From: Actinomycetes bacterium
GTDB lineage: Bacteria > Actinomycetota > Actinomycetes > Nanopelagicales > Nanopelagicaceae
DNA length: 49,130 bases
Direction: 5' to 3'
Assembly (NCBI GenBank): GCA_919902125.1
Contig: CAKKQM010000075.1
Coordinates: 1-49,130 of the forward strand
Positions 19,053 to 37,945 of this stretch are shown here, piece after piece. Numbering within the stretch: the first letter of the stretch is position 1; each line of letters begins with the position of its first letter. A model generated the notes under the pieces. That model was not told where the DNA came from. It did no database searches and saw only the letters and a list, made by a program, of their open reading frames with translations. The position numbers and the translations under genes were made by a program.

Positions 19053-20420
19053 ATGGCTAAGCCCGAAAAAGATCCATATCGCTGCAATGAATGTGGCTGG
19101 ACGACCAATAAATGGGTAGGTCGCTGCGGTGAATGTCAGGTGTGGGGCAGTGTTGAAGAGATTGCGGCCCCAAAACGTCTCTCGCTTGTTCCTGGCGCCG
19201 TTACCCATGCTGCCAGACCAATCGGTGATGTTGATTTATCTGGTGCTGCTGCGCGATCAACTGGGGTCACCGAGCTAGATCGAGTACTTGGTGGTGGGCT
19301 AGTTCCTGGCGCAGCAATACTTTTAGCGGGCGAACCTGGTGTTGGTAAATCCACCCTTGCCCTTGCCGTCGCAGCACAGAGTGCTTCACGTGGCATTCGC
19401 GCGCTCTATATCAGCGGCGAGGAATCTGCTTCGCAAGTACGTTTACGAGCCGAACGAATTGGTGCTATTGATCCGCTTCTCTGGCTCGCTTCAGAGAACG
19501 ACCTGGGCGCGCTCATCTCGCATATAGATACAGTAAAACCTGAGCTCCTCATTATTGACAGCATCCAGACCATGAGCAGTGAGGCTGCCGATGGGGCATC
19601 CGGTGGCGTTACGCAAGTTCGAGAAGTGGCAAGCGCGCTCATTCGTATTACTAAAGAGCGCGACATAACTCTGCTTCTTGTTGGTCATGTCACCAAAGAT
19701 GGCTCAATCGCCGGCCCCCGCCTACTCGAACATGTCGTTGATGTAGTCCTGCAATTTGAAGGAGAACGTCATTCACGCCTTCGTTTAATTCGCGCAACCA
19801 AGAACCGCTTTGGCGCTAGCGATGAAGTGGGGTGTTTTGATTTACATGACGGTGGCATTGAAAGCGTGGCTGATCCAACTGGCTTATTCACGACACGTCA
19901 TGCCGAACCAGTCCCTGGCACATGCGTCACGGTGACCCTGGAAGGACGTCGCCCTTTACTTGCCGAAATTCAAGCCCTCGTTGGTTTAGGTCGCGATAAC
20001 GATTATGGCAATGCTCGGCGCGTGACCAGCGGCCTTGATGCAGCACGCACATCGATGACTCTGGCCGTTTTAGAACTCCGTGCCAATATCCGCGTTGCAG
20101 GTCGCGATGTTTATGCGGCAACTGTCGGCGGTATGAAGATGACCGAACCTGCTGCAGATTTAGCACTGGCACTTGCAGTTGCATCTGCCGCAAAAGGCTT
20201 AGCCCTTCCTAGTGATTTAGTGGCAATCGGAGAAGTTGGACTAGCTGGAGAGATTCGAAAAGTTAGTGGCGTTAATCGCCGCTTAACTGAAGCTCATCGC
20301 CACGGATTTAAACGTGCCTTGGTACCGCAAGGCAGCGATACCAAGATTGAGGGCATGGAAATCGTCGAAGTCTCTCGCTTAGATCAAGCCTTAAGTCGGG
20401 TGAAGATCACTGGAGAATGA
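19053..20420 (+). CDS. radA: DNA repair protein RadA
   Basis: C4 zinc finger YRCNECGWTTNKWVGRCGECQVWG; Walker A GEPGVGKSTL; KNRFGASDEVG; Lon-like C-terminus. Confidence 0.97.
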   Translation: MAKPEKDPYRCNECGWTTNKWVGRCGECQVWGSVEEIAAPKRLSLVPGAVTHAARPIGDVDLSGAAARSTGVTELDRVLGGGLVPGAAILLAGEPGVGKSTLALAVAAQSASRGIRALYISGEESASQVRLRAERIGAIDPLLWLASENDLGALISHIDTVKPELLIIDSIQTMSSEAADGASGGVTQVREVASALIRITKERDITLLLVGHVTKDGSIAGPRLLEHVVDVVLQFEGERHSRLRLIRATKNRFGASDEVGCFDLHDGGIESVADPTGLFTTRHAEPVPGTCVTVTLEGRRPLLAEIQALVGLGRDNDYGNARRVTSGLDAARTSMTLAVLELRANIRVAGRDVYAATVGGMKMTEPAADLALALAVASAAKGLALPSDLVAIGEVGLAGEIRKVSGVNRRLTEAHRHGFKRALVPQGSDTKIEGMEIVEVSRLDQALSRVKITGE

Positions 20421-20427
20421 TAGGTAT

Positions 20428-21306
20428 TCACTGCCTCGCTAATTCAGCGGCTCGAGTTGCCGACCTAATATTTGAAACTCGCACTTGCGCGCCTAATTTA
20501 CGATTAAGCGCTTGCAATAGCGGGTTATTCTCCGTGCTAAGTCCGCCTGCAAAAACTACTGGTTTACCCTCCATACCTAAGTTCTTTTCCAGTCGCCATA
20601 CTAAGTCCGCTAAGTAGCCAGCTGCTTCTTGAAGAATTTCTAACGCCGTACCATCGCCTTCCTGCGCCAATTCAATAACATGTTGAGCGATTGACGCCAT
20701 CTTGGATCTCTCATGTGAATACACGAACGACTTAATATCTTTCCAATCCAGGCAATCCATAAAAATGAGAATCCGCTCCTCAAAAGAGTTGGGAGCAATA
20801 GGCGATTGGCTTTCAATGCGAAATAAGACTTTGCGAATTGCTTCGCGTCCTATCCAATAACCGCCACCTTCGTCACCCAACAAATAACCCCAACCACCCG
20901 CACGAATTATCTCCCTGTTCTTATTGATATGTAATGCAATTGAACCAGTACCCGCATAAAGGAAAATCCCTTCTCCAAAATCAAGATGTGTTCGGTAACC
21001 AAGTTCAATATCGGTTACAAGTTCAAGACGGGCTCTGCCAAAGACGCTCCGAAAGATTTCAACAGTTGCTGCTGCGCCCTCCACTGTTTCGGAGATCCCG
21101 GTGATTCCTGCATAAATTGCCGTCACCTTTTGAGGATGTGCGACAGCCTCAATCTCTTTTAAGACGGCGATCATGCGGGTTTTAGATTCTTCACGGTTGA
21201 TGTGGCCATCCATTGATAATGATGTGCCTTCTTTAACCGTGCCTTCACTATCTAGTAAGGCCCACTTTGTTGATGAGGCCCCAGCGTCAATTCCTAAATA
21301 GAGCAC
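20428..21306 (-). CDS. BadF/BadG/BcrA/BcrD-type ATPase, N-acetyl-amino-sugar kinase (GlcNAc/MurNAc kinase, MurK-like)
   Basis: YLGIDAGASSTKWALLDSEG; LYAGTGSIALHIN; GGWGYLLGDEGGGYWIGREAIRKV; context with sugar ABC genes, RpiR, murQ. Confidence 0.85.
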   Translation of the reverse strand: MLYLGIDAGASSTKWALLDSEGTVKEGTSLSMDGHINREESKTRMIAVLKEIEAVAHPQKVTAIYAGITGISETVEGAAATVEIFRSVFGRARLELVTDIELGYRTHLDFGEGIFLYAGTGSIALHINKNREIIRAGGWGYLLGDEGGGYWIGREAIRKVLFRIESQSPIAPNSFEERILIFMDCLDWKDIKSFVYSHERSKMASIAQHVIELAQEGDGTALEILQEAAGYLADLVWRLEKNLGMEGKPVVFAGGLSTENNPLLQALNRKLGAQVRVSNIRSATRAAELARQ

Positions 21307-21309
21307 GCC

Positions 21310-22134
21310 TTAGCCTTTCACAGCACCTGCAGTAAGTCCCTTAATGAACTGCTCAGAAAGGATGAGGTAGAGCAAAATCAATGGAAGCGCCGCCATTGTC
21401 AGACCTGCGAAAAGAATCCCCCATTGCGAGGAATATTGACCAAAGAAGACTGTAAGGCCTTGCATGATGGTCTTCTTCTCGGGAGATTGCAGAAAGACAA
21501 GGGGTAAGAAGAAATCATTCCAAATCGGTATTGCGCAGTAAATACCCACAATCGCCAGACCGGGACGTACCAGAGGCGTGAGTATGCTCCGCAACAACTG
21601 GAATTCAGAAGCTCCGTCAATTCGTGCCGCGTTATCAATGTCAGAAGGCAGGGATTTGAAGAATCCAGTCATGATGAAAATCCCAGCAGGAAGTGCCCCT
21701 GAGGTGTAAACCAGAATCAATCCCAAATGAGAATCCAATAGATGCAGCCATTTAAGTTCGATAAATAACGGCACGATTGCCAATTTCGCAGGGATAAGCA
21801 TGCCTGTTAAAACGAAGCCATAAACGAGTGAATTACCTCGAAAGTTGTAGCGACCCAACACAAACCCAGCAAGGGTCGAGAGAAAGAGAATAAGCACGAG
21901 CGAAAATCCCGTCACGATCAAAGAATTCTTGAGGTAAGTAGCAAAAGCGCCATTTGACCAAACCTCAGTGAAGTTTGCCCATTTTGGGGAAGAGGCAAAT
22001 TTAAATGGAGCAGTGACAAATTCATTGGAATCGCGGAGTGAGGAATTGAAGAGGAAGAGAACTGGGATCAGTACTCCTACAGCATTGGTAATTAAAAGCG
22101 CACGGAAGAAGAGTTTGGAGGAAAAAGTTTTCAT
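21310..22134 (-). CDS. carbohydrate ABC transporter permease (MalG-like)
   Basis: Multi-TM permease with EAA-like motif DIDNAARIDGASEFQLLRSILTPLVRPG. Confidence 0.92.
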   Translation of the reverse strand: MKTFSSKLFFRALLITNAVGVLIPVLFLFNSSLRDSNEFVTAPFKFASSPKWANFTEVWSNGAFATYLKNSLIVTGFSLVLILFLSTLAGFVLGRYNFRGNSLVYGFVLTGMLIPAKLAIVPLFIELKWLHLLDSHLGLILVYTSGALPAGIFIMTGFFKSLPSDIDNAARIDGASEFQLLRSILTPLVRPGLAIVGIYCAIPIWNDFFLPLVFLQSPEKKTIMQGLTVFFGQYSSQWGILFAGLTMAALPLILLYLILSEQFIKGLTAGAVKG

Positions 22135-23054
22135 TACTGCTCCACCTCCCGTCGACGCATTACGTTCGAGCCAACTGCGGCGCCGATTCCCACAATTGAA
22201 AAGATGATCACGCCAAGGGCAGACCCAACGCCAATTTCATTCGCTCCAGAATCAGCAGTGCCGAAAGCCAATCGATAGAACATGAGCGCCAAGGTATCGG
22301 TGGCCCCTGCTGGGTTTCCGCTTACTCCTCCCAATACAAACGGAATGTCAAACCATTCAAAGGCACCGATAAATGTCAGAATTGAAATGACGGTCATCGA
22401 TGGTGCAAGTAATGGGAACATAATCTTTCTAAAGACTTGCCCTTCAGTTGCTCCATCGATGCGGGCAGCTTCCAAATACTCAGTGCTGATCGCATTGAGG
22501 CCTGATAGGAAAATGATCGCTGGAAAACCGACCCAGCGCCATAAATTAATAAAAGCCATGGTCGGCAGGGCAGTGGTCGAACTACCTAGCCATGGCTTGG
22601 CCAAGAAATCCAAACCAAGATTATTGAGAAGCTGGTTAATCGGCCCAAAGTAAGGATCTAGGAAAGACTGCCACATATATCCAACAACAACGAGAGAGAA
22701 AATTACAGGCAAGAAAGTCACTGTTCGAAAGAATCGCTGCCCACGTTTGAGACGGTACAGAGCATATGCAAGAAGAATTCCAAGCGCAGTTTGCGTAATA
22801 AAGATGCCAATAAATACCAGTGTGTTATGGCGTAGTGCCATTAAAAATTGATCCCGAAACGGAAAAGAAAAAAGCCTTCGAAAATTATCTAACCCAGCAA
22901 AGCCTTCCTGATGAAATCCTGTCCAACGAAAGAAGGCGTAACTCAGCGTTGTCAGCGCCGGAATCGTCGTAAAAGCAACAATTGTCAATAAAGCTGGCGT
23001 CAAGAAGAGAAAGATGTATTTATTCTGCTCGCGCTTTAGACCCTTGGCCGCCAC
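22134..23054 (-). CDS. carbohydrate ABC transporter permease (MalF-like)
   Basis: EYLEAARIDGATEGQVFRKIMFPLLAPS EAA loop; adjacent to the second permease and an SBP. Confidence 0.92.
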   Translation of the reverse strand: MAAKGLKREQNKYIFLFLTPALLTIVAFTTIPALTTLSYAFFRWTGFHQEGFAGLDNFRRLFSFPFRDQFLMALRHNTLVFIGIFITQTALGILLAYALYRLKRGQRFFRTVTFLPVIFSLVVVGYMWQSFLDPYFGPINQLLNNLGLDFLAKPWLGSSTTALPTMAFINLWRWVGFPAIIFLSGLNAISTEYLEAARIDGATEGQVFRKIMFPLLAPSMTVISILTFIGAFEWFDIPFVLGGVSGNPAGATDTLALMFYRLAFGTADSGANEIGVGSALGVIIFSIVGIGAAVGSNVMRRREVEQ

Positions 23055-23087
23055 TTAATTCTCCGATGTATTGAAATGAAATAAGAA

Positions 23088-23120
23088 AACTGGGCGCAGA
23101 GATTCCCCCTGCGCCCAGTT
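23088..23120 (-). terminator. intergenic hairpin between sugar SBP and permease genes (partial terminator/mRNA stabiliser)
   Basis: 12-bp perfect stem AACTGGGCGCAG / CTGCGCCCAGTT followed on - strand by TTCTTATTTC. Confidence 0.75.
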
Positions 23121-23128
23121 TTTGTTCC

Positions 23129-24415
23129 TTAGGACTTACCTGTTTGTGGCTTGTACCAGGAGGCAATACCTGCCTGTACATCCTTAGCAAGTTGTTCTGG
23201 CGTTGTCTTTCCAACAATCAGGTTTTGGAAACCTGATTGCAAGATTGCTGAACCAGTTGGGGTCTTATAACGGAAGCCCACCAACATGAGATATGGAGTA
23301 CCGAATTGCTGGATTCCCTTATTGATCGCCTTGACCGCTGAATCTTTGACTACGGTTCTAGGAGTTGTTGAGATGAAGGCCAATTGATCCAATAGCGCTT
23401 GACCAAATGTCTTGGACGCCATGAAGTTTAAGAACTTCAAAGCCTCAGCCTTGTGCGCGGTCTTGGCATTAATTGCATAACCACCATCTGCCCAAGAAGA
23501 AACATACTTCTTTGCACCTTGCTTTGCTGCCGGTGCTGGAATCCAACCTAACTGCAAGTCCTTGTTAAGACTCTTGAAATAGCCAATCTCATAGTTACCG
23601 CCGATATAGAACGCTGCTTTTTCATTGGCAAAGAGAGCGCGTGCTGCATCATAGGTAAGACCTTCATAGCCTGCTGGCATATAGGCAGAAATATCTTTCA
23701 TGGCCTTAAGGCTGGCAACAAAGTTCTTGTCAGTGAATGTCTTGGTTCCCGCTACAACATCATCATAAAAATCGGTGCCCCCATAGAAAGTTGGTCCGAT
23801 TGCGCCCCACAATTGCTCAAGAGCTGGGCCGTTTCCGCCGCCATTTCCAAGCGGCAAAATTCCCTTGCCCTTTACTCGATTTAAGACACCCAGGAAGGAA
23901 CTCCATGTTGTTGGAAGTTGTCTAACTCCAGCTTTGGCAAGAAGCTTTGGGTTGTACATGACACCCAGCGCCGATACGGCGTATGGAAGACCGAAGACAG
24001 ATCTGTTTTCGAATCCGCGGGCTCCCGTAACGATGCCTGCTGGAATTTTTGCTAGAGCAGGAACATCTTTTGTAGTCAACGGCAATAAATACCCGGCATC
24101 GGAAAGGCCAGCACCTGCGCCATAAGCACGTAATTGAAGAAGATCTGGGCCTTTTCCTGCGGTAAGGGCAGTGGAAAGGATTGCGTTGTAATCAGTATTC
24201 AAGTACGGGGTGAATTTGATTGTGATTCCTGGATTTGCTGCTGTGAACTTAGCGGCCATGCTTTCATAGAAAGCCTTGTCCTCTGTTCTCCAGCTCCAGA
24301 ACGAAAGTTCTACTGCAGCACTTGCTGGTAGTGCAGAAATTGCAGGTACAGCAATTGCTGTGACTGCAAGAACTGCAGCAACCAGGCCGCGAACGCGGCG
24401 TTGCGTATTTCTCAC
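23129..24415 (-). CDS. extracellular solute-binding protein, sugar ABC transporter
   Basis: Signal peptide; family-1 SBP pattern (LSFWSWRTEDKAFYESMAAKFTAANPGITIKFTPY; YIGGNYEIGYFKSL). Confidence 0.92.
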   Translation of the reverse strand: MRNTQRRVRGLVAAVLAVTAIAVPAISALPASAAVELSFWSWRTEDKAFYESMAAKFTAANPGITIKFTPYLNTDYNAILSTALTAGKGPDLLQLRAYGAGAGLSDAGYLLPLTTKDVPALAKIPAGIVTGARGFENRSVFGLPYAVSALGVMYNPKLLAKAGVRQLPTTWSSFLGVLNRVKGKGILPLGNGGGNGPALEQLWGAIGPTFYGGTDFYDDVVAGTKTFTDKNFVASLKAMKDISAYMPAGYEGLTYDAARALFANEKAAFYIGGNYEIGYFKSLNKDLQLGWIPAPAAKQGAKKYVSSWADGGYAINAKTAHKAEALKFLNFMASKTFGQALLDQLAFISTTPRTVVKDSAVKAINKGIQQFGTPYLMLVGFRYKTPTGSAILQSGFQNLIVGKTTPEQLAKDVQAGIASWYKPQTGKS

Positions 24416-25386
24416 TTGTTTCCTCCTCGAGAGCGGGTGGGGGTTAAGTTTGAGTGAATTCCTTCGTCCTCACTCATTTTCTTTCCAGAACGACTACCAA
24501 TAGCCGCTCTGGATTGATCCAGAGCAGATTTGGTCCCGCTCCAATCTCTCTGCGCTAAAGCAACACAGAGACAATCAACCACTGTTAATTGAGCAATGCG
24601 ACTTGCAGTTGCTCCGCTGCGGAAGGTGGTTTCCCGAGCCGATGTGTAAAGAACTAGATCCGCAATCGCTGTCGATGGACTACGCAGAGTGTTAGTAATT
24701 AAGACAATCGTTACGCCACGCTCTTTGAATTCTGCCATAACATCCACGACATCAACCGTGGTACCACTATGGCTAATTGCAACCAACACATCATTTGCGC
24801 CGAGTAGTGAAATAGAAGTGAGCGCGGTATGTGCATCGCGCCAAGCAACACAGTGTTTGCCTAGACGGTTTAATTTCAACTGCAAGTCCATCGCGACATA
24901 GCCACCAGAGGCAACACCAAGGATTCCAATTGTTTTCGCTGCTATCCATGCATCAACCGTTGCCACAAAATTCTTTACATCTAATCTCTCTGCCGTTGAT
25001 TGAATTGCCCGTGCATCGGCTTGGGATATCTTTCTAATTACTTCTGATGCTGAGTCATTGACTGTTATTCCGCCATCTAATTCTGATGTCTCTAAACCTG
25101 AGTGTGCGAGACGACTGAGTTCGCTGACTAGGGCCATGCGAAATTCTGGGAAACCTTTGTAACCCACTGCCTTACTAAACCGAACAACCGAGGCGACCGA
25201 AGTGGAACTAAAACTTGCCAACTGGGAAATATTCATCTGAGCTACATGCTCAGGATTATCCAGAATTGCATGCGCAATAGCTGCTTCACTGGCGTGAAAA
25301 GAGGGGAAGGAGTTTGCAATTTCACCAAGAAGATCTCGGTAATTCCTACCGACTACCTGTAGGTTGGGTTCAGTTTCAGCCACCAT
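24412..25386 (-). CDS. RpiR/MurR-family transcriptional regulator (HTH + SIS domain)
   Basis: N-terminal HTH (SQLASFSSTSVASVVRFSKAVGYKGFPEFR) and SIS domain (DVLVAISHSGTTVDVVDVMAEFKERGVTIVLITN). Confidence 0.92.
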   Translation of the reverse strand: MVAETEPNLQVVGRNYRDLLGEIANSFPSFHASEAAIAHAILDNPEHVAQMNISQLASFSSTSVASVVRFSKAVGYKGFPEFRMALVSELSRLAHSGLETSELDGGITVNDSASEVIRKISQADARAIQSTAERLDVKNFVATVDAWIAAKTIGILGVASGGYVAMDLQLKLNRLGKHCVAWRDAHTALTSISLLGANDVLVAISHSGTTVDVVDVMAEFKERGVTIVLITNTLRSPSTAIADLVLYTSARETTFRSGATASRIAQLTVVDCLCVALAQRDWSGTKSALDQSRAAIGSRSGKKMSEDEGIHSNLTPTRSRGGNK

Positions 25387-25401
25387 GCCTCCTCAGTTTC
25401 A

Positions 25402-25416
25402 TGAAAAAATCCTTCA
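25402..25416 (-). promoter_or_regulatory. candidate operator upstream of rpiR operon (TGAAGGATTTTTTCA on - strand)
   Basis: Near-identical 15-mer (1 mismatch) at 33760..33774 at the same distance from matching -10/-35 boxes. Confidence 0.6.
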
Positions 25417-25438
25417 AAAATTTTGGCTGTAGGCGAAA

Positions 25439-25467
25439 ATTATTGCCAAAGATCCTGAGGTAGTCAA
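25439..25467 (-). promoter_or_regulatory. putative sigma70-type promoter of the rpiR-SBP-permease-kinase operon (TTGACT-N17-AATAAT)
   Basis: -35 at 25462..25467, -10 at 25439..25444, 17-nt spacer; correct side of the rpiR ATG. Confidence 0.6.
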
Positions 25468-25492
25468 GCCTTTAAGGAGAGAATTTCTTGGC

Positions 25493-26605
25493 TTATCCAT
25501 GAAGCACTTGGTGAATTGCGTTCATCACTGGTTGCCAGAGCTCCTCGGTTGAGGTTGGCACTCCCTCCACGTGAAGCCGGTTTGTCAGCAAAACAACAAC
25601 ACAATTATGAGATGGTGCAGAAGCAAAGACGGTTCCTGGAAAACCTGTATGGCCAATGAATTCCGTGGTGCATCCATTATAAGTATCCGACCAACTTCTA
25701 AACCCTAAGCGCTGTCCCACATCAGGACCAACCGCAAAAAAATCCTGCGCTACTGATTGAGAGAAAATTCCTTCTCCTTTAAGACTGGAATTTAGCGCTT
25801 CGCCAAATTGCAAAAGATCTTCCGCCGAAGCAAATAAACCGGCATGACCAGAAACACCACCAAAGATGTGGAAAGCATTTCCATCATTTACCTCACCGAC
25901 TAGAACATGACTTCGCCATTTACTAAAATTTTTCGCATCCTCTGGAACTGGATACGGAACTTTACTTTCCACCATCTGTTTTTCAATTAAATCGCCAAAT
26001 GAGGTCGCCGCAACTGGAGAATTTGCAATTGGTTGAGCAAATTGAGTCCTGCGCATCTGGAGGGGCTCAAATACAAGTGTGCTGGCTGTAGTACGTAGGC
26101 TCTCCCCCGCTACTGTAGTAAGAATCTGACCTAGGGAAATAAAACCAAGATCTGAGTAATGACGACCTTGATTAACCAAATACCGAAGGGGCATTGCAGC
26201 AATCTGCTTTATAACCTCTGCCGGATCTTGAACATTAATATAGAGCGGTCGCCACTCCCATAAGCCACTTCGGTGTAATAATAAATCTTTAATTACGATC
26301 TCTTCTTTATCGGTGTCAGACCATTCTCCTAAAAACTTGGAAACTTTGTCGCCTAAGGAAATTCCTCCACTATCAATTAAGCGCATTAAACTTGCGGTAG
26401 TTGCTAAAACCTTGGTAATCGAACCTAAATCAAAAGAAGTGTCGGCTGTCATTGGTAAAGCAGAATCAACACCGAAAAGCTGTCGGTCGCCAAGTGCAAT
26501 AATCTTTCGTTCCCCTTTAATGGAGAGACCAAAAACTAAACCCGGGGGTGATTGCTGGCCTTGGTTAAGAAGTCGATCTAGAGCACTACTAATTAGTTCA
26601 TTCAT
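25493..26605 (-). CDS. beta-lactamase-family (class C/PBP4*-like) serine hydrolase, no evident signal peptide
   Basis: SxxK motif in FDLGSITKVLATTASLMRL, YSD motif in GRHYSDLGFISLGQIL, HTG in FIGHTGFPGT. Confidence 0.88.
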   Translation of the reverse strand: MNELISSALDRLLNQGQQSPPGLVFGLSIKGERKIIALGDRQLFGVDSALPMTADTSFDLGSITKVLATTASLMRLIDSGGISLGDKVSKFLGEWSDTDKEEIVIKDLLLHRSGLWEWRPLYINVQDPAEVIKQIAAMPLRYLVNQGRHYSDLGFISLGQILTTVAGESLRTTASTLVFEPLQMRRTQFAQPIANSPVAATSFGDLIEKQMVESKVPYPVPEDAKNFSKWRSHVLVGEVNDGNAFHIFGGVSGHAGLFASAEDLLQFGEALNSSLKGEGIFSQSVAQDFFAVGPDVGQRLGFRSWSDTYNGCTTEFIGHTGFPGTVFASAPSHNCVVVLLTNRLHVEGVPTSTEELWQPVMNAIHQVLHG

Positions 26606-26676
26606 ATTAATTGCACCTCCCCACCCCTATATTCAATACCTTCATCCGCAACGCAATAAACCCAGAATAGAGAGTA

Positions 26677-27192
26677 TTGAGTAAAGTACTTCTCGTGAAG
26701 TTATCAATTCGCCCAGGTAGGCCAGCGGATATCGACGCAATTGTGCGAATTTTTCGCGCCTGTTGGCAGGTGTCGTACCGGAATTTACTTAGCGAAGAAG
26801 TTCGAAGCGCTATGACGCAAGAGAGGGCGTATGAACTCTGGTCGCCCACCACGCAGAACGATCGCGAAACTCTAATTGCAGAAATTGAATCTGGCCCTGT
26901 CGGCATGGCTCGAATCGGCTCTGATCCAGATTTTCCTAACCGCGGCCATCTTTTTTCCTTATATATCCATCCAGAGGACGCCGGAAAGGGGTTCGGTAAG
27001 GCGCTGCTCACTGCCGCTCTTGCAGAGTTAAAAGAGCGTAATTTCATTGAAATTTCACTCTGGGTCTTCCAAGAGAACCTTGGTGCGCGGGGTATTTATG
27101 AAAAAATGGGATTTGTTCCAACCGGCAGGCAGCGCATGGATATTCGTTGGCAGAGCTTGGAGATCGAGATGCTCCATAGTCAGATTAATTAA
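26677..27192 (+). CDS. GNAT-family N-acetyltransferase
   Basis: IRPGRPADIDAIVRIFRACW; LFSLYIHPEDAGKGFGKALL; start TTG 26677 or GTG 26695. Confidence 0.88.
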   Translation: MSKVLLVKLSIRPGRPADIDAIVRIFRACWQVSYRNLLSEEVRSAMTQERAYELWSPTTQNDRETLIAEIESGPVGMARIGSDPDFPNRGHLFSLYIHPEDAGKGFGKALLTAALAELKERNFIEISLWVFQENLGARGIYEKMGFVPTGRQRMDIRWQSLEIEMLHSQIN

Positions 27193-28354
27193 CTACTCTA
27201 ATTCGCGTTGGTTTAATTTTACTTACGGCAGGCACTTGCAGGGGATGGGCACCGGGCGTTAACGAACCAAGCAATCTTTCACCATTGGCACCTGTGCAAC
27301 TTGGGATTTGGCCCGGTAGACCGTGTAGCGTTAAAAATCCAATTAGTGCAACCGTTAAAGATTCTTTCGCACGGGGATCAATGCCGAGTTCAGAAATTGA
27401 AAGAATTGCACATTGCCTAAGGCGATCTTGCATACGTTTCATCATCACAGGATTCGCTGATCCACCACCGGCGATATAGAGCTTGCTTAAAGAATTCTTC
27501 TCTACTTCTTGTGCAACCGTTTCAACAGTGAGCTCGAGCAAGGTCGCCATAAGATTTTCGATATTCCAAGAATGAACTGGGCCAGTTCGTTCAATTAGAT
27601 AGGGAAGATGAAATAACTCTTTCCCGGTCGATTTAGGTGCAGGTAACGAGTAATACGGTTCATTAAGAAATACATTGAGAAGATCTGTGTCCACAGTTCC
27701 TGCAGCAGCCAATTTTCCATCTTCGTCAAAGGAAACTTTGCCATTTGAATATGCGTAAATCGCAGCATCGAGAAGTCCATTTGCAGGTCCAATGTCGTAC
27801 GCCATCGGAATGATTGATTTACCAGCAATGGTGATATTGGAAATTCCACCCAAATTAAGCGCGCCCTCTGGTTTATCACTATGCCCTAAGAGCAGTTGAT
27901 CCAAAATACTTACCAATGGGGCACCATGGCCACCAGCAGCAACATCTCGTGAGCGAATATTAGAAAGTACTGGCGTACCCGTGGCTTCCGCAATCCATGA
28001 AGGCTCACCTAATTGCAAAGTGCCCTTAGCTCTATGATTGCTATCAATCCAATGGAAGAGAGTTTGGCCATGCGAGACAATCAAGTCGGGTTGAAATGAA
28101 AACTCCGAAATCGCCGCTTGAGCTGCTTTAGAAAAGGCTTGACCGATCAAAGTATCAAGTACACAAACTCGTTCCATGTCAATCGAACGTGGGGGCATCG
28201 AATCAGCAATCATTTGATGCAAGTAGGGCGAATATTCGAGCGAATTAAATCCAATCTGTTTTACTTCAATCACGTCATCGATTTGTATAAAGTCACAACA
28301 GGCAACATCAATACCATCAAAAGATGTTCCTGAAATCATTCCAATAATTTTCAT
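27185..28354 (-). CDS. anmK: anhydro-N-acetylmuramic acid kinase
   Basis: GMISGTSFDGIDVACCDF; VSHGQTLFHW; LQLGEPSWIAEATGTPVLSNIRSRDVAAGGHGAPLVSILD; NLGGISNIT; YIAGGGSANPVMMKRM. Confidence 0.96.
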   Translation of the reverse strand: MKIIGMISGTSFDGIDVACCDFIQIDDVIEVKQIGFNSLEYSPYLHQMIADSMPPRSIDMERVCVLDTLIGQAFSKAAQAAISEFSFQPDLIVSHGQTLFHWIDSNHRAKGTLQLGEPSWIAEATGTPVLSNIRSRDVAAGGHGAPLVSILDQLLLGHSDKPEGALNLGGISNITIAGKSIIPMAYDIGPANGLLDAAIYAYSNGKVSFDEDGKLAAAGTVDTDLLNVFLNEPYYSLPAPKSTGKELFHLPYLIERTGPVHSWNIENLMATLLELTVETVAQEVEKNSLSKLYIAGGGSANPVMMKRMQDRLRQCAILSISELGIDPRAKESLTVALIGFLTLHGLPGQIPSCTGANGERLLGSLTPGAHPLQVPAVSKIKPTRIRVVN

Positions 28355-29304
28355 GATTTAACCTCCGGACAGGCTACCAAATGCTCAGGTGACATTTCTA
28401 AAAGTACTGGAACTCTCTCTGAGCATGCGCCCACGGCAATAGAACAGCGCACGTGGAAAGCACAACCTGTTGGTAAATTCGCTGGATCGGGCACTTCGCC
28501 TTGCAGGGTTTTTGCAAGTGTTTCAGGATTGCCAATAATGCTGTGATCGGGCATTGCAGCAATAAGTGCCTGTGTATAGGGATGCATAGGTCTTTCAATG
28601 ATTTGTTCCCAATTACCATATTCAACGATCTTGCCAAGATACATCACGGCAATGACGTCGCTGATGTAACGGATCATTCCCAAGTCGTGGCTGATAAAAA
28701 TATAAGTAAGGCCGAACTTGGATCGCAAATCAATAAGCAAGTTCATTACTTCAGCGCGCACTGATACATCTAGGGCTGAAACTGGCTCATCAAGAATGAG
28801 TAACTCCGGTTCAGATGCCAATGCTCGAGCGATACTTACACGTTGTCTTTGACCACCAGAGAGTTGGGGCGGATAGCGATGTTTAAGATCAGGCGTTAAA
28901 CCCACAATCGATAAGAGCTCGTCGACGCGGGTTTCGATTTTATCTTTTGTGACCAATTTATGGACACGGAGAGCCTCCGCGATTGATTCGCCAAGTTGTT
29001 GCCTCGGATTTAACGACGAATATGGATCTTGGAAAACTAATTGCACCTTTGAGTGATGTGGGCGCCAATGATTTTTGGCTTTGTCCTTTATCTTTTCATT
29101 TGCCCAAGTTACGGTTCCAATAGTCGGTTTCTCTAATCCTGAAACTACACGCGCAAGAGTTGACTTACCACAACCACTCTCGCCAACGATTCCGAGGGTT
29201 TGTCCTTTCCTAAGTGTCACCGAAATGCCGTTCAACGCATTAATCACAGTTCCGGTTGCCAGAATTTTGTACTGTTTTTCTATGTTTGAGATGACAAGAC
29301 TCAT
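28351..29304 (-). CDS. oligopeptide/dipeptide ABC transporter ATP-binding protein (OppF/DppF)
   Basis: Walker A GESGCGKSTLARV; LSGGQRQRVSIARAL; C-terminal oligopeptide/dipeptide extension GCAFHVRCSIAVGAC. Confidence 0.94.
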   Translation of the reverse strand: MSLVISNIEKQYKILATGTVINALNGISVTLRKGQTLGIVGESGCGKSTLARVVSGLEKPTIGTVTWANEKIKDKAKNHWRPHHSKVQLVFQDPYSSLNPRQQLGESIAEALRVHKLVTKDKIETRVDELLSIVGLTPDLKHRYPPQLSGGQRQRVSIARALASEPELLILDEPVSALDVSVRAEVMNLLIDLRSKFGLTYIFISHDLGMIRYISDVIAVMYLGKIVEYGNWEQIIERPMHPYTQALIAAMPDHSIIGNPETLAKTLQGEVPDPANLPTGCAFHVRCSIAVGACSERVPVLLEMSPEHLVACPEVKS

Positions 29305-30275
29305 CAGAGAGCTCCCATCGGATGAAAACAGGCAACACTCTTTTCAAGGTTTCCCACCAAATGTGGAATCTGCGTTCGGCACTCTGGTTGCACCTTGAAA
29401 CAACGCGGAGCAAAAGCGCACGATTGCCCAACTAACCACGGCTTCTGCGGAACACCAGCGATGGATGTCAGACGTTTGCGACTCTTATCCGCCGTAGTTG
29501 GTAATGATGAAAGTAAGCCAGCAGTGTAAGGATGCTGCGGATTTGTGAATATTTCTTTCACGGTCCCCGATTCAACTATCCGCCCAGCATACATGACGAT
29601 CAATCTGTCAACGAGGTTGGCAACTACACCTAAATCATGGGTAATCCAGAGCATTGACATATTTCGCTTCTGTCGTTGCTCGGCAACCAACGAAAGAATC
29701 TGTTGTTGAATAGTTACATCTAAAGCAGTGGTGGGTTCATCGGCAATTAGTAATTTTGGTGAAAGCAGAAGAGCCATTGCAATCATGACCCGTTGGCGCA
29801 TGCCGCCCGAGAACTCGTGCGGATAACTCTGCATAGCGCGTGCTACATCGGGAATACCAACTTCTTTCAATGCATCGCGTACTCGTTGATCTGAATTCGC
29901 ATCAAGCTTTTCATGTGACTCAATAACTTCAAGAAGTTGCTTGCCGATCTTCATGACAGGATTTAGGGCAGTCATTGGATCCTGATAGACCATCGATATC
30001 GCAGAGCCCCGCAGTTCTCGTATCTGTTGAGGCGAAGCTGTGGTGAGGTTCATTCCGTTGTAATTAACCGACCCGGCAGTAACTGCAACACCCCGTGGCA
30101 ATAAACCCAGAATAGAGAGGGATGTAAGCGTCTTACCTGAACCGCTTTCACCAACAACGCCAACCGCTTCACCTGCATGTATCTCGAAAGTCACGTCATT
30201 GATAAGAGTCCGTGGATCTTGAACGGTGGAGATTCCAAGATTTTCGACCAAAAGCAGCGGCTTGAGTTGGCTCAT
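29304..30275 (-). CDS. oligopeptide/dipeptide ABC transporter ATP-binding protein (OppD/DppD)
   Basis: [50 protein letters not shown]. Confidence 0.94.
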
Positions 30276-31132
30276 GAGTTTCTCCGAGCTGGATCCATGG
30301 CATCGCGAAGTCCGTCACCAACAAGATTTAATCCCACAACAACAATGGTGATAAAGAGTGAAGGAAATGCCAATGTCCACCAAGCAAAAGCAGCTAAAGA
30401 TTGCGCATCAGCGACCATCAAGCCAAGAGACGCATCAGGAGGCTGGGTGCCCAAACCTAAGAAACTTAAACCTGATTCAGTAAGAATGGCCCAAGAAAGT
30501 GAGAGAGCAATTTGCACAACGATTGGTGCAGTCACATTAGGGAGAATATGTTTGATGAGAATACGCGGTGACGAGTACCCCAAGATGCGAGAAACTTTGA
30601 TGTAATCCATCTCTTTGGCAGTCAGAACAGGACCGCGCGCAACACGGATAAAGATAGGGGTGTAAACAATTGCAATAGAGAGTGCGGTGTCAACCCATGA
30701 ATTACCTAAGCTGCTCACAATCGCCAGAGCCAGAAGAATTGCCGGAAAAGCAAAAACTGCATCGCTGAGGCGAGTTATCAATAGATCAAACCACTTACCT
30801 AAGTAACCACCCAAAATGCCAAGAGTGACGCCGACCAGGGTAGCGATAGAAACAGCAACAATTGAGATAGTCAGCGAGCGTCGCATTCCATCAAAAGTAC
30901 GGGAAAAAATATCTCGACCGAATTGATCGGTCCCAAACCAGTATTTCCCGGAAGGACCTTTTAAAACCTCATCAACGTTCTGGTCTAACGGATTGTGCGG
31001 CAACCAACCAAAGGCAGCGCATAGTGATGCCACAACCATAAAAAGGAGCAAGATCGCACCGATGATGCCGCTGGTGCTTTGCAAGTAGTAATGCAATCCG
31101 CCTTTGACGATTTTATCTTTGCGTCTCATCAT
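30272..31132 (-). CDS. oligopeptide/dipeptide ABC transporter permease (OppC/DppC)
   Basis: FGTDQFGRDIFSRTFDGMRRSL; SGLSFLGLGTQPPDASLG. Confidence 0.94.
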   Translation of the reverse strand: MMRRKDKIVKGGLHYYLQSTSGIIGAILLLFMVVASLCAAFGWLPHNPLDQNVDEVLKGPSGKYWFGTDQFGRDIFSRTFDGMRRSLTISIVAVSIATLVGVTLGILGGYLGKWFDLLITRLSDAVFAFPAILLALAIVSSLGNSWVDTALSIAIVYTPIFIRVARGPVLTAKEMDYIKVSRILGYSSPRILIKHILPNVTAPIVVQIALSLSWAILTESGLSFLGLGTQPPDASLGLMVADAQSLAAFAWWTLAFPSLFITIVVVGLNLVGDGLRDAMDPARRNS

Positions 31133-32109
31133 TTAATCCGTGGATCTATTTTACGATAAATCAGATCAGTAAGAACGTTTATCGTGACAAACATAATTGC
31201 AAAAATCATGACGCTGCTTTGGACGGTAGCATATTCGCGCTTGGTAATTGCATTCAATACCTGGCGGCCCATACCAGGTAAAGCAAAAATTTGCTCCACA
31301 ATGACTGCGCCACCGAGCAAATAACCAAATTGAATGCCAGTCATTGTGACAATCGGAATTAATGAGTTACGTAAAATATGGCGGTACTGGACTTTGCGGG
31401 GCGCCACGCCTTTTCCGTGTGCGGTGCGGACGAAATCCTTATCCACTGTCTCCAATAATGCAGAACGTGTCGTTCGCATGACGGGCGCTGCCACGGCAAT
31501 GCCAAGAACGAGCCCCGGAAACATCATCTGCTGGAAATTGGTCCAAGGATTTTCCCAGGGTGGCATATATTCCAAACCATTAGGAAAGTAGTGAAACTTA
31601 TTTGCCATAATCGTCACAATTGCAGTACTTAATACAAAACCAGGTATCGCCAATGCCAAGAGCCCAAATAATTGCCCCGCGAAATCCCGAAAACTTCCTG
31701 GTTTACGGGCACTAAACATCCCAATTGCGATGCCGATGACTACCCCAAGGATGGTGCCAATCAGCGCGAGTTCAACTGTGACGGGAAGTGCAGATTTTGT
31801 TAACTTCAAAACCGAGACACCGGTTGAAAAAGAATAGCCAAGTTGTCCGCTTAAGAAACTCTTCATCCATGACAGGTATTGAAGAAGTAATGATTGATCA
31901 ATGCCGTAGTAATGACGTAACTGAGCGATTTGATCTGGCGTGAGTACGCCTGTTTCAATTCCAAAAGAACCTGTGATTGTGTCGCCAGGAATCACTCGCA
32001 AGACAACAAATACGAAGATGGAAATTCCAAAAAGTGTGGAGAGGACGCTGAAAATTCGCAAAATAGTGGGAGAAAATATAAACCGCCGCAGCCTAGACAC
32101 GACCTGCAT
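31129..32109 (-). CDS. oligopeptide/dipeptide ABC transporter permease (OppB/DppB)
   Basis: VVLRVIPGDTITGSFG; RTAHGKGVAPRKVQYRHILRNSLIPIVT; GGAVIVEQIFALPGMGRQVLNAI. Confidence 0.94.
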   Translation of the reverse strand: MQVVSRLRRFIFSPTILRIFSVLSTLFGISIFVFVVLRVIPGDTITGSFGIETGVLTPDQIAQLRHYYGIDQSLLLQYLSWMKSFLSGQLGYSFSTGVSVLKLTKSALPVTVELALIGTILGVVIGIAIGMFSARKPGSFRDFAGQLFGLLALAIPGFVLSTAIVTIMANKFHYFPNGLEYMPPWENPWTNFQQMMFPGLVLGIAVAAPVMRTTRSALLETVDKDFVRTAHGKGVAPRKVQYRHILRNSLIPIVTMTGIQFGYLLGGAVIVEQIFALPGMGRQVLNAITKREYATVQSSVMIFAIMFVTINVLTDLIYRKIDPRIK

Positions 32110-32159
32110 CGCGATTTACCCCCCTTTACATAAATACAGAATATTTAAATCAAGAAAAA

Positions 32160-32197
32160 CGGGACGGTGTGTAGATGTACATCTGCACACCGTCCCG
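32160..32197 (-). terminator. strong intergenic hairpin between oppA-type SBP and oppB
   Basis: 38-nt near-perfect palindrome CGGGACGGTGTG-T-AGATGTACATCT-G-CACACCGTCCCG, followed on - strand by TTTTTCTTGATTT. Confidence 0.85.
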
Positions 32198-32203
32198 GCC
32201 TAA

Positions 32204-33715
32204 CTATTTGAGATCGGCTTTACGCAACTCAATCAATGAGCCTGTTGCTAGTGGAACAAAGCCAGTCAAACTCTTGGAAGTGACGCGGTACTCATATGGG
32301 GCAAAGAGCCAGATCCAAACAGCATTATTTTCTAGTTCCTCGGATATAGCCCTGTATGCAGCTTTGCGTTCTGCAACTTTGCTAGTTGATTTGCCCTTAA
32401 TAAAGAGCGCATCAAGGGTTGCTGATGAATAACCAGCAACCTTGTTTAAGTTACCAGTTGAGGTGAAGTAACGGGTGTACATCGTGTCCGGATCAATACG
32501 ACCACCATTATTAGCAATGGCGGTAGCAAAATCGGCGGCCAACCAACGAGATATGAACGTTGAGTCATCAACCAACTCGAGTTCCAAGGTAATGCCAGCC
32601 TTTGCCAACTGAGACTTCAGACTCTGAGCAATTGCAGATGCAGTCGCAAATTGAGTTGGAGCTACTATCGACTTGATGGTTAAACCCGTTGCGTAACCAG
32701 CATTGGCAAGGTACTTCTTCGCCTTCGCAATATCTGCATTTGGGCACGGACGATCATTTGGATTTGACCTGTAGGCAGGACTGGTAATTGGGCCGATAAT
32801 AGAAGCTTCGCCTGACTGTGCAGTTTTCACAACTTCTGATCGGCTAATTGCGCACTGAATGGCAAGACGGACGTTGACGTCATTCAAAGGCGCTTTCCTT
32901 GCGTTTAACTGAAGCACCATATAAGCCAACCCGGGAGTTTTGTACATTTTTAGATTCTTACCGACCTGCTTCGCAATCAATGGATCAGTGATGACTGCGA
33001 ACTGAACTGTTCCCGCATTTAACGCTGAAAGTACTGAGGCTTCGCTAGGGATAACGCGAAAAGTGACTGTGTCCAACTTCGGAGCCTTGCCCCAGTAGGT
33101 GGCATTTTTCTCTAACTTGACCGATTGACCTGGTTCCCATGAAACGAACTTAAATGGACCGGTTCCGTTTACGCTCTTGCCAATCTTGCCAGCCTTAATA
33201 TCATCGCTAGAAAGCATCGCCATATTCACGCCATCAAGTGCAGCAAGAATTGGAACGTTTGGGGTTGAAAGGTGGAGGGTGACATCAAGACCAGATGTGG
33301 TAATTGACGTAATCGTCAACAAATTTGCACGCGCTGCTGCCTTGGTGGCAGGGTCGAGAATTCTCTCTATAGATGCCTTCACATCTTGGGCATCAAAGGT
33401 TGACCCATCGTGGAACTTCACACCTTTACGAATGTGTAAACGCAACTGGGTTCCAGCGGCGTTAAATCCCCACGAGGTTGCCAGACCTGGGCGAATATCG
33501 AGTTTTGGCCCAACTTCCACCAAACTGCCATAAACAACTCCAAGTGCGCGCACTGTTGCAAAACTTGTTGCGGCTTGTGGGTCTAACTTGTCAATATCAA
33601 GAGTGATGCCCACAACAAGATCCTTACTTACAGCTTGAGCAGGTGCTATAAGCACCACACTTGCTACGAGTGCCGTGGCTACGCCAACGACTGCAATCTT
33701 CTTTCTCAATCTCAT
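32204..33715 (-). CDS. ABC transporter substrate-binding protein, peptide/oligopeptide (OppA/DppA, family 5)
   Basis: Signal peptide after MRLRKK; family-5 SBP patterns (LRLHIRKGVKFHDGSTFDAQDVKASIERILDP, GTGPFKFVSWEPGQSVKLEKNATYWG); start refined to ATG 33715. Confidence 0.93.
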   Translation of the reverse strand: MRLRKKIAVVGVATALVASVVLIAPAQAVSKDLVVGITLDIDKLDPQAATSFATVRALGVVYGSLVEVGPKLDIRPGLATSWGFNAAGTQLRLHIRKGVKFHDGSTFDAQDVKASIERILDPATKAAARANLLTITSITTSGLDVTLHLSTPNVPILAALDGVNMAMLSSDDIKAGKIGKSVNGTGPFKFVSWEPGQSVKLEKNATYWGKAPKLDTVTFRVIPSEASVLSALNAGTVQFAVITDPLIAKQVGKNLKMYKTPGLAYMVLQLNARKAPLNDVNVRLAIQCAISRSEVVKTAQSGEASIIGPITSPAYRSNPNDRPCPNADIAKAKKYLANAGYATGLTIKSIVAPTQFATASAIAQSLKSQLAKAGITLELELVDDSTFISRWLAADFATAIANNGGRIDPDTMYTRYFTSTGNLNKVAGYSSATLDALFIKGKSTSKVAERKAAYRAISEELENNAVWIWLFAPYEYRVTSKSLTGFVPLATGSLIELRKADLK

Positions 33716-33759
33716 TATTTTCCCTTTCCCAAGGTGGAATCGACTTGACTCCACGGCGG

Positions 33760-33774
33760 TGAAAAAAACCTTCA
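33760..33774 (-). promoter_or_regulatory. candidate operator upstream of oppA-anmK operon (TGAAGGTTTTTTTCA on - strand)
   Basis: Matches the 25402..25416 element at 14/15 positions, same geometry to promoter. Confidence 0.6.
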
Positions 33775-33796
33775 TAGATTCTGCCCAACTGTGGAA

Positions 33797-33825
33797 ATCA
33801 TTGCCTTATTTAACCCCTAGGTCAA
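33797..33825 (-). promoter_or_regulatory. putative sigma70-type promoter of the oppA-oppBCDF-anmK operon (TTGACC-N17-AATGAT)
   Basis: -35 at 33820..33825, -10 at 33797..33802, 17-nt spacer; aligned without gaps to the rpiR promoter. Confidence 0.6.
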
Positions 33826-33852
33826 GCGGTGCTAGAAGTAAAATTTGGCGAG

Positions 33853-34770
33853 TTACTCGGTTGTTAGTGCTTCCCGTACGCGATTGGAGGAAGTTCGTAA
33901 GCGTTCGCGGGCCAGATCTGCATCAATTCCCAGCAAGAGCATCAAAATGGCAACTTTAACTTCGTGGCCCGAGTCCGCCAGCGCCTTCTCTGCTTCCAAC
34001 CGAGAAGTTCCGGTGGCTTTTTCAATGATTCGAAGGGCTCTATCTTGGAGTTTTTCATTAGTGATCTGTAGATCCACCATCAAATTCCCAAAAGTCTTAC
34101 CTAAGCGGACCATTGTGATTGTCGAGATCATATTGAGAACTAATTTCTGGGCGGTGCCGGATTTAAGACGGGTGGACCCAGCCAACAATTCAGGACCTGA
34201 GTCAATCTCAATCGGATGATCAATCTCCTTGGATATCTCAGAATTTGGGTTGGAAGTTAAGCCAACGGTAAGAGCGCCCACTTTTTTAGCATAAGCCAGT
34301 GCGCCAAGAACGTAAGGAGTGCGACCACTGGCGGCAATACCAACAACTGCATCGACTGAAGTTAGATGAGCTGATTTCAATTCGTTCTCGCCGGCTGCAA
34401 AATCATCTTCTGCGCCTTCAACTGCATGCTTAAGGGCTCGATCGCCACCAGCAATAAAAGCGAGAACTTGATCATCTGTCACAGAAAATGTCGGTCCGCA
34501 CTCTGCAGCATCTAGAACACCTAAGCGGCCAGAGGTGCCAGCGCCAATATAAATAAGTCTCCCGCCTTGGCGCATGCGATCAACAATGGCATTAATAGCG
34601 CTCTCGATTTTGGGTAGCGCAATGGCAACGGCCTTTGGGACTTCAGCATCGCTTTCATTCATTGCTTGCAGTAATTCAGATACTGACATCACATCCAATA
34701 GGTGGAACTTGGAATCAACCTCTTCGGTACGGAGCAAGCCAAGCGTTGAATCATCGGTACTGCTACTCAT
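33853..34770 (-). CDS. murQ: N-acetylmuramic acid 6-phosphate etherase
   Basis: GGRLIYIGAGTSGRLGVLDAAECGPTFSV; GIAASGRTPYVLGAL; GPELLAGSTRLKSGTAQKLVLNMIST. Confidence 0.97.
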   Translation of the reverse strand: MSSSTDDSTLGLLRTEEVDSKFHLLDVMSVSELLQAMNESDAEVPKAVAIALPKIESAINAIVDRMRQGGRLIYIGAGTSGRLGVLDAAECGPTFSVTDDQVLAFIAGGDRALKHAVEGAEDDFAAGENELKSAHLTSVDAVVGIAASGRTPYVLGALAYAKKVGALTVGLTSNPNSEISKEIDHPIEIDSGPELLAGSTRLKSGTAQKLVLNMISTITMVRLGKTFGNLMVDLQITNEKLQDRALRIIEKATGTSRLEAEKALADSGHEVKVAILMLLLGIDADLARERLRTSSNRVREALTTE

Positions 34771-34850
34771 GGAGACCCTTCTCTTTGGATAAAGGATAAG
34801 CCTGCTGAGGTTTCATTGGAAACCAGGCCCAAGCGCCCTAGGCTAAAGCA

Positions 34851-35408
34851 GTGACCAACTATCTATTGGCAGTATTGGTGATCTTTGGCGCAAATATTAT
34901 GCCTGCATTTGCACCACCGACCTGGTCAATACTCGTTTATTTTACACTTCGATATCAGATAAATCCGATTGGGTTGGTTCTTCTCGGCGTCGCAAGCGCA
35001 ACCCTAGGACGTAGCGTACTGGCTTTAACTTTTCGCAAGCTGCGCTCTTGGTTGCCTAAAGGGTATGTAGCAAATATGGAAAGACTTGGAATTTACATTG
35101 CCAGAAATTCTCGCCGGACAATTGGATTGCTCGTGCTCTTCTTTCTCTCTCCCATATCTTCAGCCCAACTCTTTGAGGCTGCCGGAATCATCAAGCAGAT
35201 TGCCCTCAAACCGCTGCTCATAGCCTTTGCGGGCGGACGTCTCGTGAGTTACTCGATTTATGTCTCAAGCGCTACCGTGCTGAAATCAACTTCCCTCGGT
35301 GAGGTCATCACGAAAGAACTTACCTCACCAAAAGCGATCGTCCTCCAAGTGGCACTTATCCTGGGCCTCATTGCCCTTGGCAACGTGAAATGGAAAGTGA
35401 AGGGGTAA
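34851..35408 (+). CDS. conserved integral membrane protein, function unknown
   Basis: 185 aa, several hydrophobic segments, GTG start; weak resemblance to VTT/DedA-type proteins only. Confidence 0.6.
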   Translation: MTNYLLAVLVIFGANIMPAFAPPTWSILVYFTLRYQINPIGLVLLGVASATLGRSVLALTFRKLRSWLPKGYVANMERLGIYIARNSRRTIGLLVLFFLSPISSAQLFEAAGIIKQIALKPLLIAFAGGRLVSYSIYVSSATVLKSTSLGEVITKELTSPKAIVLQVALILGLIALGNVKWKVKG

Positions 35409-35437
35409 ATCCATACAGCCCACTCAAAACTTAAACT

Positions 35438-37945
35438 CTAGGGTTTGACGGTCGGGGTTTCAGTTAGATCGCTAGGTGAATCTGGCATCAGCACTTTAGG
35501 TGAACCGGTAAAGGTGAACTTCGCATCGGTGCCTTCACCTTCGACATCAACCACGATAATGTCACCAGCTTTAAGCTCACCAAAGAGAATCTTCTCGGAC
35601 AAACTGTCCTCGATTTCACGTTGAATAGTACGACGCAATGGTCGTGCACCCAATAATGGATCGTAACCACGTTGGGCCAAAAGATCTTTGGCAACGGCAG
35701 TGAGTTCGATACCCATGTCCTTTGCCTTCAAACGATCTTCCAGGTTGGCAATCATCAGATCGACAATTTGAATGATGTCATCCTTGGTTAACTGATGGAA
35801 GACGATGATGTCATCGATACGGTTGAGGAATTCAGGACGGAAATGTGTCTTGAGTTCGTCAGTGACTTTTGCTTTCATGCGCTCGTAATTACTGATTGCA
35901 TCTTCGGAATTAGCAAAGCCAAGACCAGCGCCTTTAGAAATATCACGTGTACCAAGGTTGGTGGTCATGATGATGACGGTATTCTTAAAATCTACCAGGC
36001 GGCCTTGCGCATCTGTAAGGTGCCCATCTTCAAGAACTTGAAGCAATGAGTTGAAAATATCTGGGTGTGCCTTTTCGATTTCATCGAAAAGGACAACAGA
36101 GAATGGTCGACGACGTACTTTCTCTGTGAGTTGACCGCCCTCGTCGTAACCAACATATCCGGGAGGTGCCCCAAAGAGTCGTGATGCAGTGTGACGTTCG
36201 GAATATTCGGACATATCAAGTTGGATCAGCGCATCTGCATCGCCAAACAAAAATGCCGCAAGAGTGCGCGATAGTTCGGTCTTACCGACACCAGAAGGAC
36301 CGGCAAAGATAAATGAGCCGCCCGGACGACGTGGATCTTTAAGACCTGCACGGGTACGACGGATCGCTTGAGAAAGCGCTTTAATCGCTTGATCTTGGCC
36401 GATGACACGACGATGAAGTTCGTCTTCCATGCGGAGCAAACGAGCTGTCTCTTCCTCGGTCAACTTAAAGACTGGAATACCTGTAGCGGTTGAGAGAACT
36501 TCAGCAATGAGTTCTTCATCAACTTCAGTAACGACATCGAGGTCGCCGGCTTTCCATGTCTTTTCACGCTCAGCCCTTTCGTTCATCAAATTCTTTTCAG
36601 TATCGCGAAGGGAGGCAGCTTTTTCGAAATCCTGACCATCAATAGCGGATTCTTTTTCGCGGCGAACATTGGCGATTTTCTCGTCAAATTCGCGTAGCTC
36701 CGGTGGCGCGGTCATACGACGGATGCGCAGACGTGAACCGGCCTCATCAATTAAGTCAATCGCTTTATCTGGCAAGAAACGGCCAGAAACATAGCGGTCG
36801 GCAAGAGTGGCTGCAGCAACAAGGGCGGCGTCAGAAATTGAAACACGGTGATGTGTCTCGTAACGATCGCGGAGGCCTTTAAGAATTTCGATGGTGTGCG
36901 CAAGTGACGGCTCGGCAACTTGAATTGGTTGGAAGCGGCGTTCAAGGGCTGCATCCTTTTCGAGGTGTTTGCGGTATTCATCAAGCGTCGTAGCCCCGAT
37001 TGTCTGGAGCTCGCCACGGGCCAACATCGGCTTCAAAATGCTGGCGGCGTCAATTGCACCTTCAGCAGCACCAGCGCCAACCAGAGTATGAATTTCATCA
37101 ATGAAGAGGATGATGTCACCGCGCGTACGGATCTCTTTCAAAACTTTCTTTAACCGCTCTTCGAAATCACCACGGTAACGACTGCCCGCAACGAGGGCGC
37201 CCAGATCGAGAGAGTAGATCTGCTTATCCTTTAATGTCTCAGGGATATCACCCCTGACAATTGCTTGGGCAAGGCCTTCAACCACGGCAGTTTTACCGAC
37301 ACCTGGCTCGCCAATCAGAACTGGATTATTTTTAGTCCGACGTGACAACACCTGCATGACGCGTTCAATCTCTTTTTCGCGGCCGATAACCGGATCAAGT
37401 TTTCCTTCGCGGGCAGCCTGAGTTAGGTTGCGGCCAAATTGGTCAAGCACGAGCGAAGTTGACGACGTGCCCTCTGCCGGGCCGCCCGCAGTAACTGTTT
37501 CTTTACCTTGGTAACCAGAAAGGAGTTGAATAACTTGCTGACGGACGCGTGGGAGATCAGCGCCGAGTTTCATTAAAACTTGGGCAGCAACGCCTTCGCC
37601 TTCACGGATAAGACCTAGCAAAATATGCTCGGTGCCGATGTAATTATGGCCCAGCTGTAATGCCTCACGGAGTGAGAGTTCAAGCACTTTCTTAGCACGT
37701 GGAGTGAATGGAATATGCCCACTTGGAGCTTGCTGACCTTGGCCAATAATCTCTTCGACCTGTTGGCGTACTGCTTCAAGTGAGATACCAAGGGATTCAA
37801 GGGCCTTGGCTGCAACGCCTTCGCCCTCGTGAATCAGTCCAAGGAGGATATGTTCGGTGCCGATGTAATTGTGATTGAGCATCCGTGCTTCTTCTTGAGC
37901 TAGCACAACAACGCGCCTGGCTCGGTCGGTAAAGCGCTCAAACAT
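35438..37945 (-). CDS. clpC: ATP-dependent Clp protease ATP-binding subunit ClpC
   Basis: Duplicated Clp_N repeats ([13 protein letters not shown] x2), [31 protein letters not shown], UvrB/C-type linker; ATG at 37945. Confidence 0.97.

Follow-up and report, generated by a model that had tools for sequence, protein, structure and literature searches.

The window analysed here, a stretch of 49,130 nucleotides, carries a cell-wall salvage cluster composed of murQ, opp genes, anmK, a beta-lactamase-fold gene, rpiR and sugar-transport genes, and two of its operons start with promoters of the same layout. This raises the question what the common layout stands for and which regulator may act on it. 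The first-pass annotation had proposed a 67-bp unit with a single operator downstream of the promoter, at which the RpiR-family protein encoded nearby would stop elongating RNA polymerase. The layout stands, but the unit was incomplete, because half of the operator, a second box over the -10 and start region, had been overlooked.

Two promoter-operator units in a salvage cluster

All genes and sites described for the window lie on the minus strand unless noted otherwise. The gene murQ (33853–34770), which encodes a MurNAc-6P etherase and matches TIGR00274, is located directly upstream of unit 2. The opp operon under unit 2 (25493–33715) comprises oppA-B-C-D-F, anmK (498.6 bits against a cutoff of 440) and a PBP4B/AmiE-like beta-lactamase-fold gene. 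Translation of oppA likely starts with the ATG at 33715, because the signal peptide begins there; the start of the longest open reading frame at 33775 is misleading. The second operon begins with rpiR (24412–25386), which codes for a MurR/RpiR-family regulator with HTH_6 and SIS domains, the predicted binder of the boxes, and continues (20428–24415) with genes for a sugar-binding protein, two permeases and a BadF-type amino-sugar kinase. In relatives, anmK and the beta-lactamase-fold gene are separated by an epimerase-like gene (L-Ala-D/L-Glu), for example at L104:13138–14166. The corresponding interval of the window (26606–27184) contains only an antisense GNAT gene (26677–27192, plus strand); a minus-strand open reading frame of 146 aa (26607–27047), for which no family match was obtained, is probably spurious.

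Unit 1 lies upstream of rpiR in the short intergenic gap that separates it from the beta-lactamase-fold gene (25387–25492), and unit 2 lies upstream of oppA in the short gap after murQ, which ends at 33853. Re-reading of the minus strand gave the sequences and spacings as first annotated, identical in both units: a near-consensus -35 element (TTGACT at 25462–25467 in unit 1 and TTGACC at 33820–33825 in unit 2), 17 nt, a -10 element (AATAAT at 25444–25439 and AATGAT at 33802–33797, respectively), 22 nt and a 15-mer, here called box B (TGAAGGATTTTTTCA at 25402–25416 and TGAAGGTTTTTTTCA at 33760–33774). Box B has the form TGAA-N7-TTCA, is the stronger and more symmetric of the two boxes and, in unit 1, is predicted to occupy positions +17 to +31. 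The second box, box A (TGGCAATAATTTTCG at 25434–25448 and AGGCAATGATTTCCA at 33792–33806), is a degenerate copy, GGCRATRATTTYCRC, of box B that includes the -10 element and lies over the -10 and start region, exactly 32 bp upstream of box B; box A, spacer and box B (15 + 17 + 15 bp) together span 47 bp. The -35 elements were read from the sequence, box B of unit 2 from sequence, genome scan and conservation, and box A of unit 1 from conservation, an offset test and an exact genome scan.

The exact 15-mer TGAAGGWTTTTTTCA occurs twice in the whole genome (1,628,632 bases), both times at the unit promoters. Many unrelated genomic matches, which would speak against an operator, did not turn up: the pattern TGAARRWTTTTTTCA has two exact copies in the 1.63-Mb genome and one further copy with one mismatch. 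The pattern of box A is likewise present in two exact copies in this genome, which belong to the same two units. With up to three mismatches, the 15-mer was found 7 times in the window against 4.9 expected occurrences, which is unremarkable, and therefore the motif alone proves little.

Distribution of the unit among related genomes

Of 296 genomes of the family, 38 contain murQ, and 35 of these, but no others, also hold an rpiR orthologue. The two genes are linked in one cluster; in the three genomes with murQ and no rpiR, murQ was seen on short contigs. A sequence-only profile of the unit, trained on 26 units and run over the 296 genomes, gave 46 matches of at least 31 bits. These came from 36 of the 38 genomes with murQ, whereas the best score among the other 258 was 23.2 bits. 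Many of the positive matches are training sequences, while the negative side, comprising the 258 genomes, is non-circular; co-occurrence of the unit with murQ has a Fisher p of ~3e-44, a statistic that ignores the relatedness of the genomes. This large search used stricter filters, at the loss of weak matches. A third profile match in the genome of the window (C48:17995–18034, 20.5 bits) is partial, has no proper box B and was taken as a chance match. The shared promoter-operator layout is real and well above chance, and its restriction to murQ genomes upholds the earlier idea of one regulon.

The same layout recurs upstream of family rpiR orthologues, so that the conservation expected at orthologous loci was found. 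The unit also precedes oppA in eleven other genomes and, in G008, a sugar-binding (sugar-transporter) gene that is split from rpiR there; across the family it co-occurs with rpiR and murQ regardless of gene order. In most family genomes murQ stands just upstream of a unit, yet a convincing box upstream of murQ itself was not found in the family loci (one candidate in L129). In another genome (L175, G064:C188), a unit is situated near a contig end, right after the beta-lactamase-fold gene and with its downstream gene beyond the assembly; rpiR lies elsewhere in that genome, with its own unit. The host family looks like freshwater-type actinobacteria, because the names of five relatives, all metagenome-assembled actinobacteria, mention groundwater, Lac Pavin, Lanier and Kiruna.

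A class-wide search for murQ gave loci of one genus, g35, which is streptomycete-like in its genome size (6–11 Mb), its G+C-rich sequence and its rpiR-murQ pair. These loci were absent from the training set of the profile. All 13 rpiR-murQ loci examined carry TTGAC, followed by CGAAAATATCTTTCA or a close variant over the -10 and, 16–17 bp downstream of this box A, TGAAGGAAATTTTC(A/G) or a close variant. The box spacing is 31 in 10 loci and 32 in 3 loci, and box A is nearly a full palindrome of the TGAA-N7-TTCA type. In L201, the pair agrees at 16 of 16 fixed positions, whereas none of 300 shuffles exceeded 12. In other actinobacterial families, four rpiR loci (L047, L049, L050, L051) lack the full box pair; at one of them, L049, a single box-like half overlies the -10.

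A second box in register with the first

Across 43 distinct units, two islands besides the -35 element (TTGAC in 38 of 43) are conserved, namely box B and the block GGCGATAATTTTCAC, which spans the -10 and extends to the predicted start. The bases of the inter-box spacer are unconserved and its length is fixed to within one. Identity to box B within the units is highest at an offset of 32 bp, with 8.1 of 15 positions against at most 6.3 at the other offsets tried, and 74% of the units have both the G and the C that correspond to the outer palindrome positions. Part of the conservation of box A is promoter conservation, because the box overlaps the -10; background promoters in the fetched loci were uninformative as a control, giving only 3 strict-pattern matches, one of them an uncollected unit. 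Box A could also be read as a 16-bp palindrome of even length, GGYGAWAATTTTCACC, but box B is matched better by the 15-bp register at offset 32. Outside the genus of the window, the -35 element is often 2 bp closer and the register of the -10 may differ; the spacing between box A and box B is kept.

If RpiR acted by a pure roadblock, as first annotated, a dimer on box B alone would stop the elongating polymerase, and box A would be mere promoter sequence. The greater strength and symmetry of box B and its position downstream of the predicted start fit such a mode, as do a few genomes that keep box pairs without a recognisable -35, where read-through is all that could be blocked. In five rpiR units (L118, L119, L121, L122 and L126, most clearly in the first two) TTGAC has decayed and both boxes are recognisable; these pairs are candidates for natural internal operators that block read-through. 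However, conservation continues past the -10, where CAC is kept at 84–91% in register with box B, and in the streptomycete-like loci box A itself forms a palindrome of the TGAA-N7-TTCA type. A single downstream site acting as a pure roadblock is the less probable reading. Box A overlaps the -10 and start at a constant distance of 32 bp from box B, so exclusion of RNA polymerase by a repressor on the two boxes has at least the same probability as a pure roadblock.

Probable repression by a MurR-type regulator

We consider it probable that the neighbouring RpiR is a MurR-type autorepressor that bridges both boxes, from about -16 to +31, and releases them on MurNAc-6P. Each 67-bp segment would then be a sigma-70-type promoter with a two-box operator, in which box B would be the strong site and box A, whose sequence the -10 constrains, a weaker copy about three helical turns (32 bp) upstream. 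By analogy to E. coli MurR, an RpiR tetramer lying across the putative start site would block polymerase binding or opening as well as elongation. MurNAc-6P would be made by AnmK and the kinase and removed by MurQ, and its build-up would release the repressor and switch on the operons for uptake and salvage of muropeptides and amino sugars. We infer physical binding by RpiR from sequence comparison: co-occurrence of the unit with murQ and rpiR, the site in front of rpiR itself and the recurrence at streptomycete-like rpiR-murQ loci support the link that the first-pass annotation had suggested.

Alternatively, RpiR might be an activator working through the boxes, as reported for pneumococcal NanR (SpNanR), for which use of a degenerate second half-site has been suggested (PMC12713135). 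The SpNanR sites precede the -35 by about 55 bp, whereas the boxes described here lie over the -10 and start, in the position of a repressor, and the other reported RpiR regulators are repressors (PMC12713135), which makes activation very improbable. Even less credible is that the boxes serve another regulator or an RNA leader element and that RpiR is associated by mere linkage: RpiR binding is a prediction and box B would fall within the leader RNA, but the unit tracks rpiR and murQ across the family in any gene order, rpiR itself carries the site, an Rfam scan of 20000–36000 gave no RNA element match, and the leader shows no conservation between the boxes.

Repression from both boxes has its closest model in E. 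coli MurR, which is reported to bridge, as a tetramer, two sites 17 bp apart over its promoter, 47 bp in all (PMC12713135). Both proteins are RpiR-family regulators linked to murQ and a PBP4B-like gene, with MurNAc salvage as their established or predicted role, and both operators have two sites, a 17-bp separation, a total of 47 bp and a 32-bp period; in the murR-murQ gap of MG1655, the single direct repeat of at least 8 bp, ATGATTCC, has a period of 32 (L176:5690–5729). In contrast to the TGAA-N7-TTCA boxes, the E. coli operator consists of such repeats, and its sites lie over the -35 and -10 with murR divergent from murQ, whereas the pair in the window spans the -10 to about +31 and murQ has no box. 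A streptomycete MurR-like/MurQ pair, SCO4308/SCO4307, was named previously (PMC5061867). There, too, rpiR adjoins murQ, and the streptomycete-like loci have two boxes at 31–32 bp over the -10 and leader, but an attached opp/anmK cluster is missing and box A is more palindromic. No operator for SCO4308 or for RpiR and MurNAc in Streptomyces was found in the literature searched. Pneumococcal NanR shares a TGAA...TTCA-type site (consensus TCTGAAACTACTTTCAAA) and a proposed degenerate second half-site reached by the tetramer (PMC12713135), but differs in its 14-bp core spacing, its function as activator from sites far upstream of the -35 and its sialic-acid target genes. Pseudomonas RccR/HexR have 15-bp pseudopalindromic RpiR operators as well, with two copies at the aceE promoter, but TGTAGT/ACTACA half-sites, a 68-bp separation, KDPG as effector and central-carbon targets (PMC5489143).

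The kind of system is already known, while the operator sequence, its pairing with the -10 region, the actinobacterial regulon and the extension to streptomycete-like genomes appear to be new; an earlier description of a TGAA-N7-TTCA operator pair was not found in the literature searched, the coverage of which is incomplete, and may exist elsewhere. The unit provides a concrete candidate operator and regulon for MurNAc and muropeptide salvage in uncultured freshwater-type actinobacteria, and the same motif extends the candidate operator to streptomycete-like genomes, in which MurR-like proteins have already been named. Judging from our comparison, MurR-type control may rely generally on operator pairs with tetramer spacing. 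More tentatively, the MurR operator might be a device conserved in its geometry, a pair of boxes separated by the reach of one tetramer (31–32 bp, 47-bp span), which enterobacteria, streamlined freshwater-type actinobacteria and streptomycetes have all retained even though the sequence recognised has diverged. The actinobacterial version would sit astride the start, combining occlusion and roadblock, in some operons it would outlast the decay of the -35 as an internal roadblock, and MurQ, which destroys the presumed inducer, would be outside its control.

The RpiR protein of the window scores above the cutoffs for an N-terminal Pfam HTH_6 domain (59.6 bits) and a C-terminal SIS domain (70.6 bits). 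We use the label MurR-type and do not call it a MurR orthologue because its score against the NCBIfam MurR equivalog (PRK15482), 109 bits, is far below the cutoff of 408. It matches SIS-domain structures of E. coli MurR with E 3.7e-19, and its best match among solved structures is the sialic-acid NanR-type protein 4ivn. An SxSG loop and an ETxxRS stretch are common to the window RpiR and E. coli MurR; ETxxRS is present in every full-length family RpiR orthologue examined, and the streptomycete-like proteins have ESxxRP. One family genome (L058, G015) encodes a second, 30%-identical RpiR paralogue that lacks the ETxxRS stretch, and the region upstream of its gene contains TTGACA together with a TGATATTTTCCGC block.
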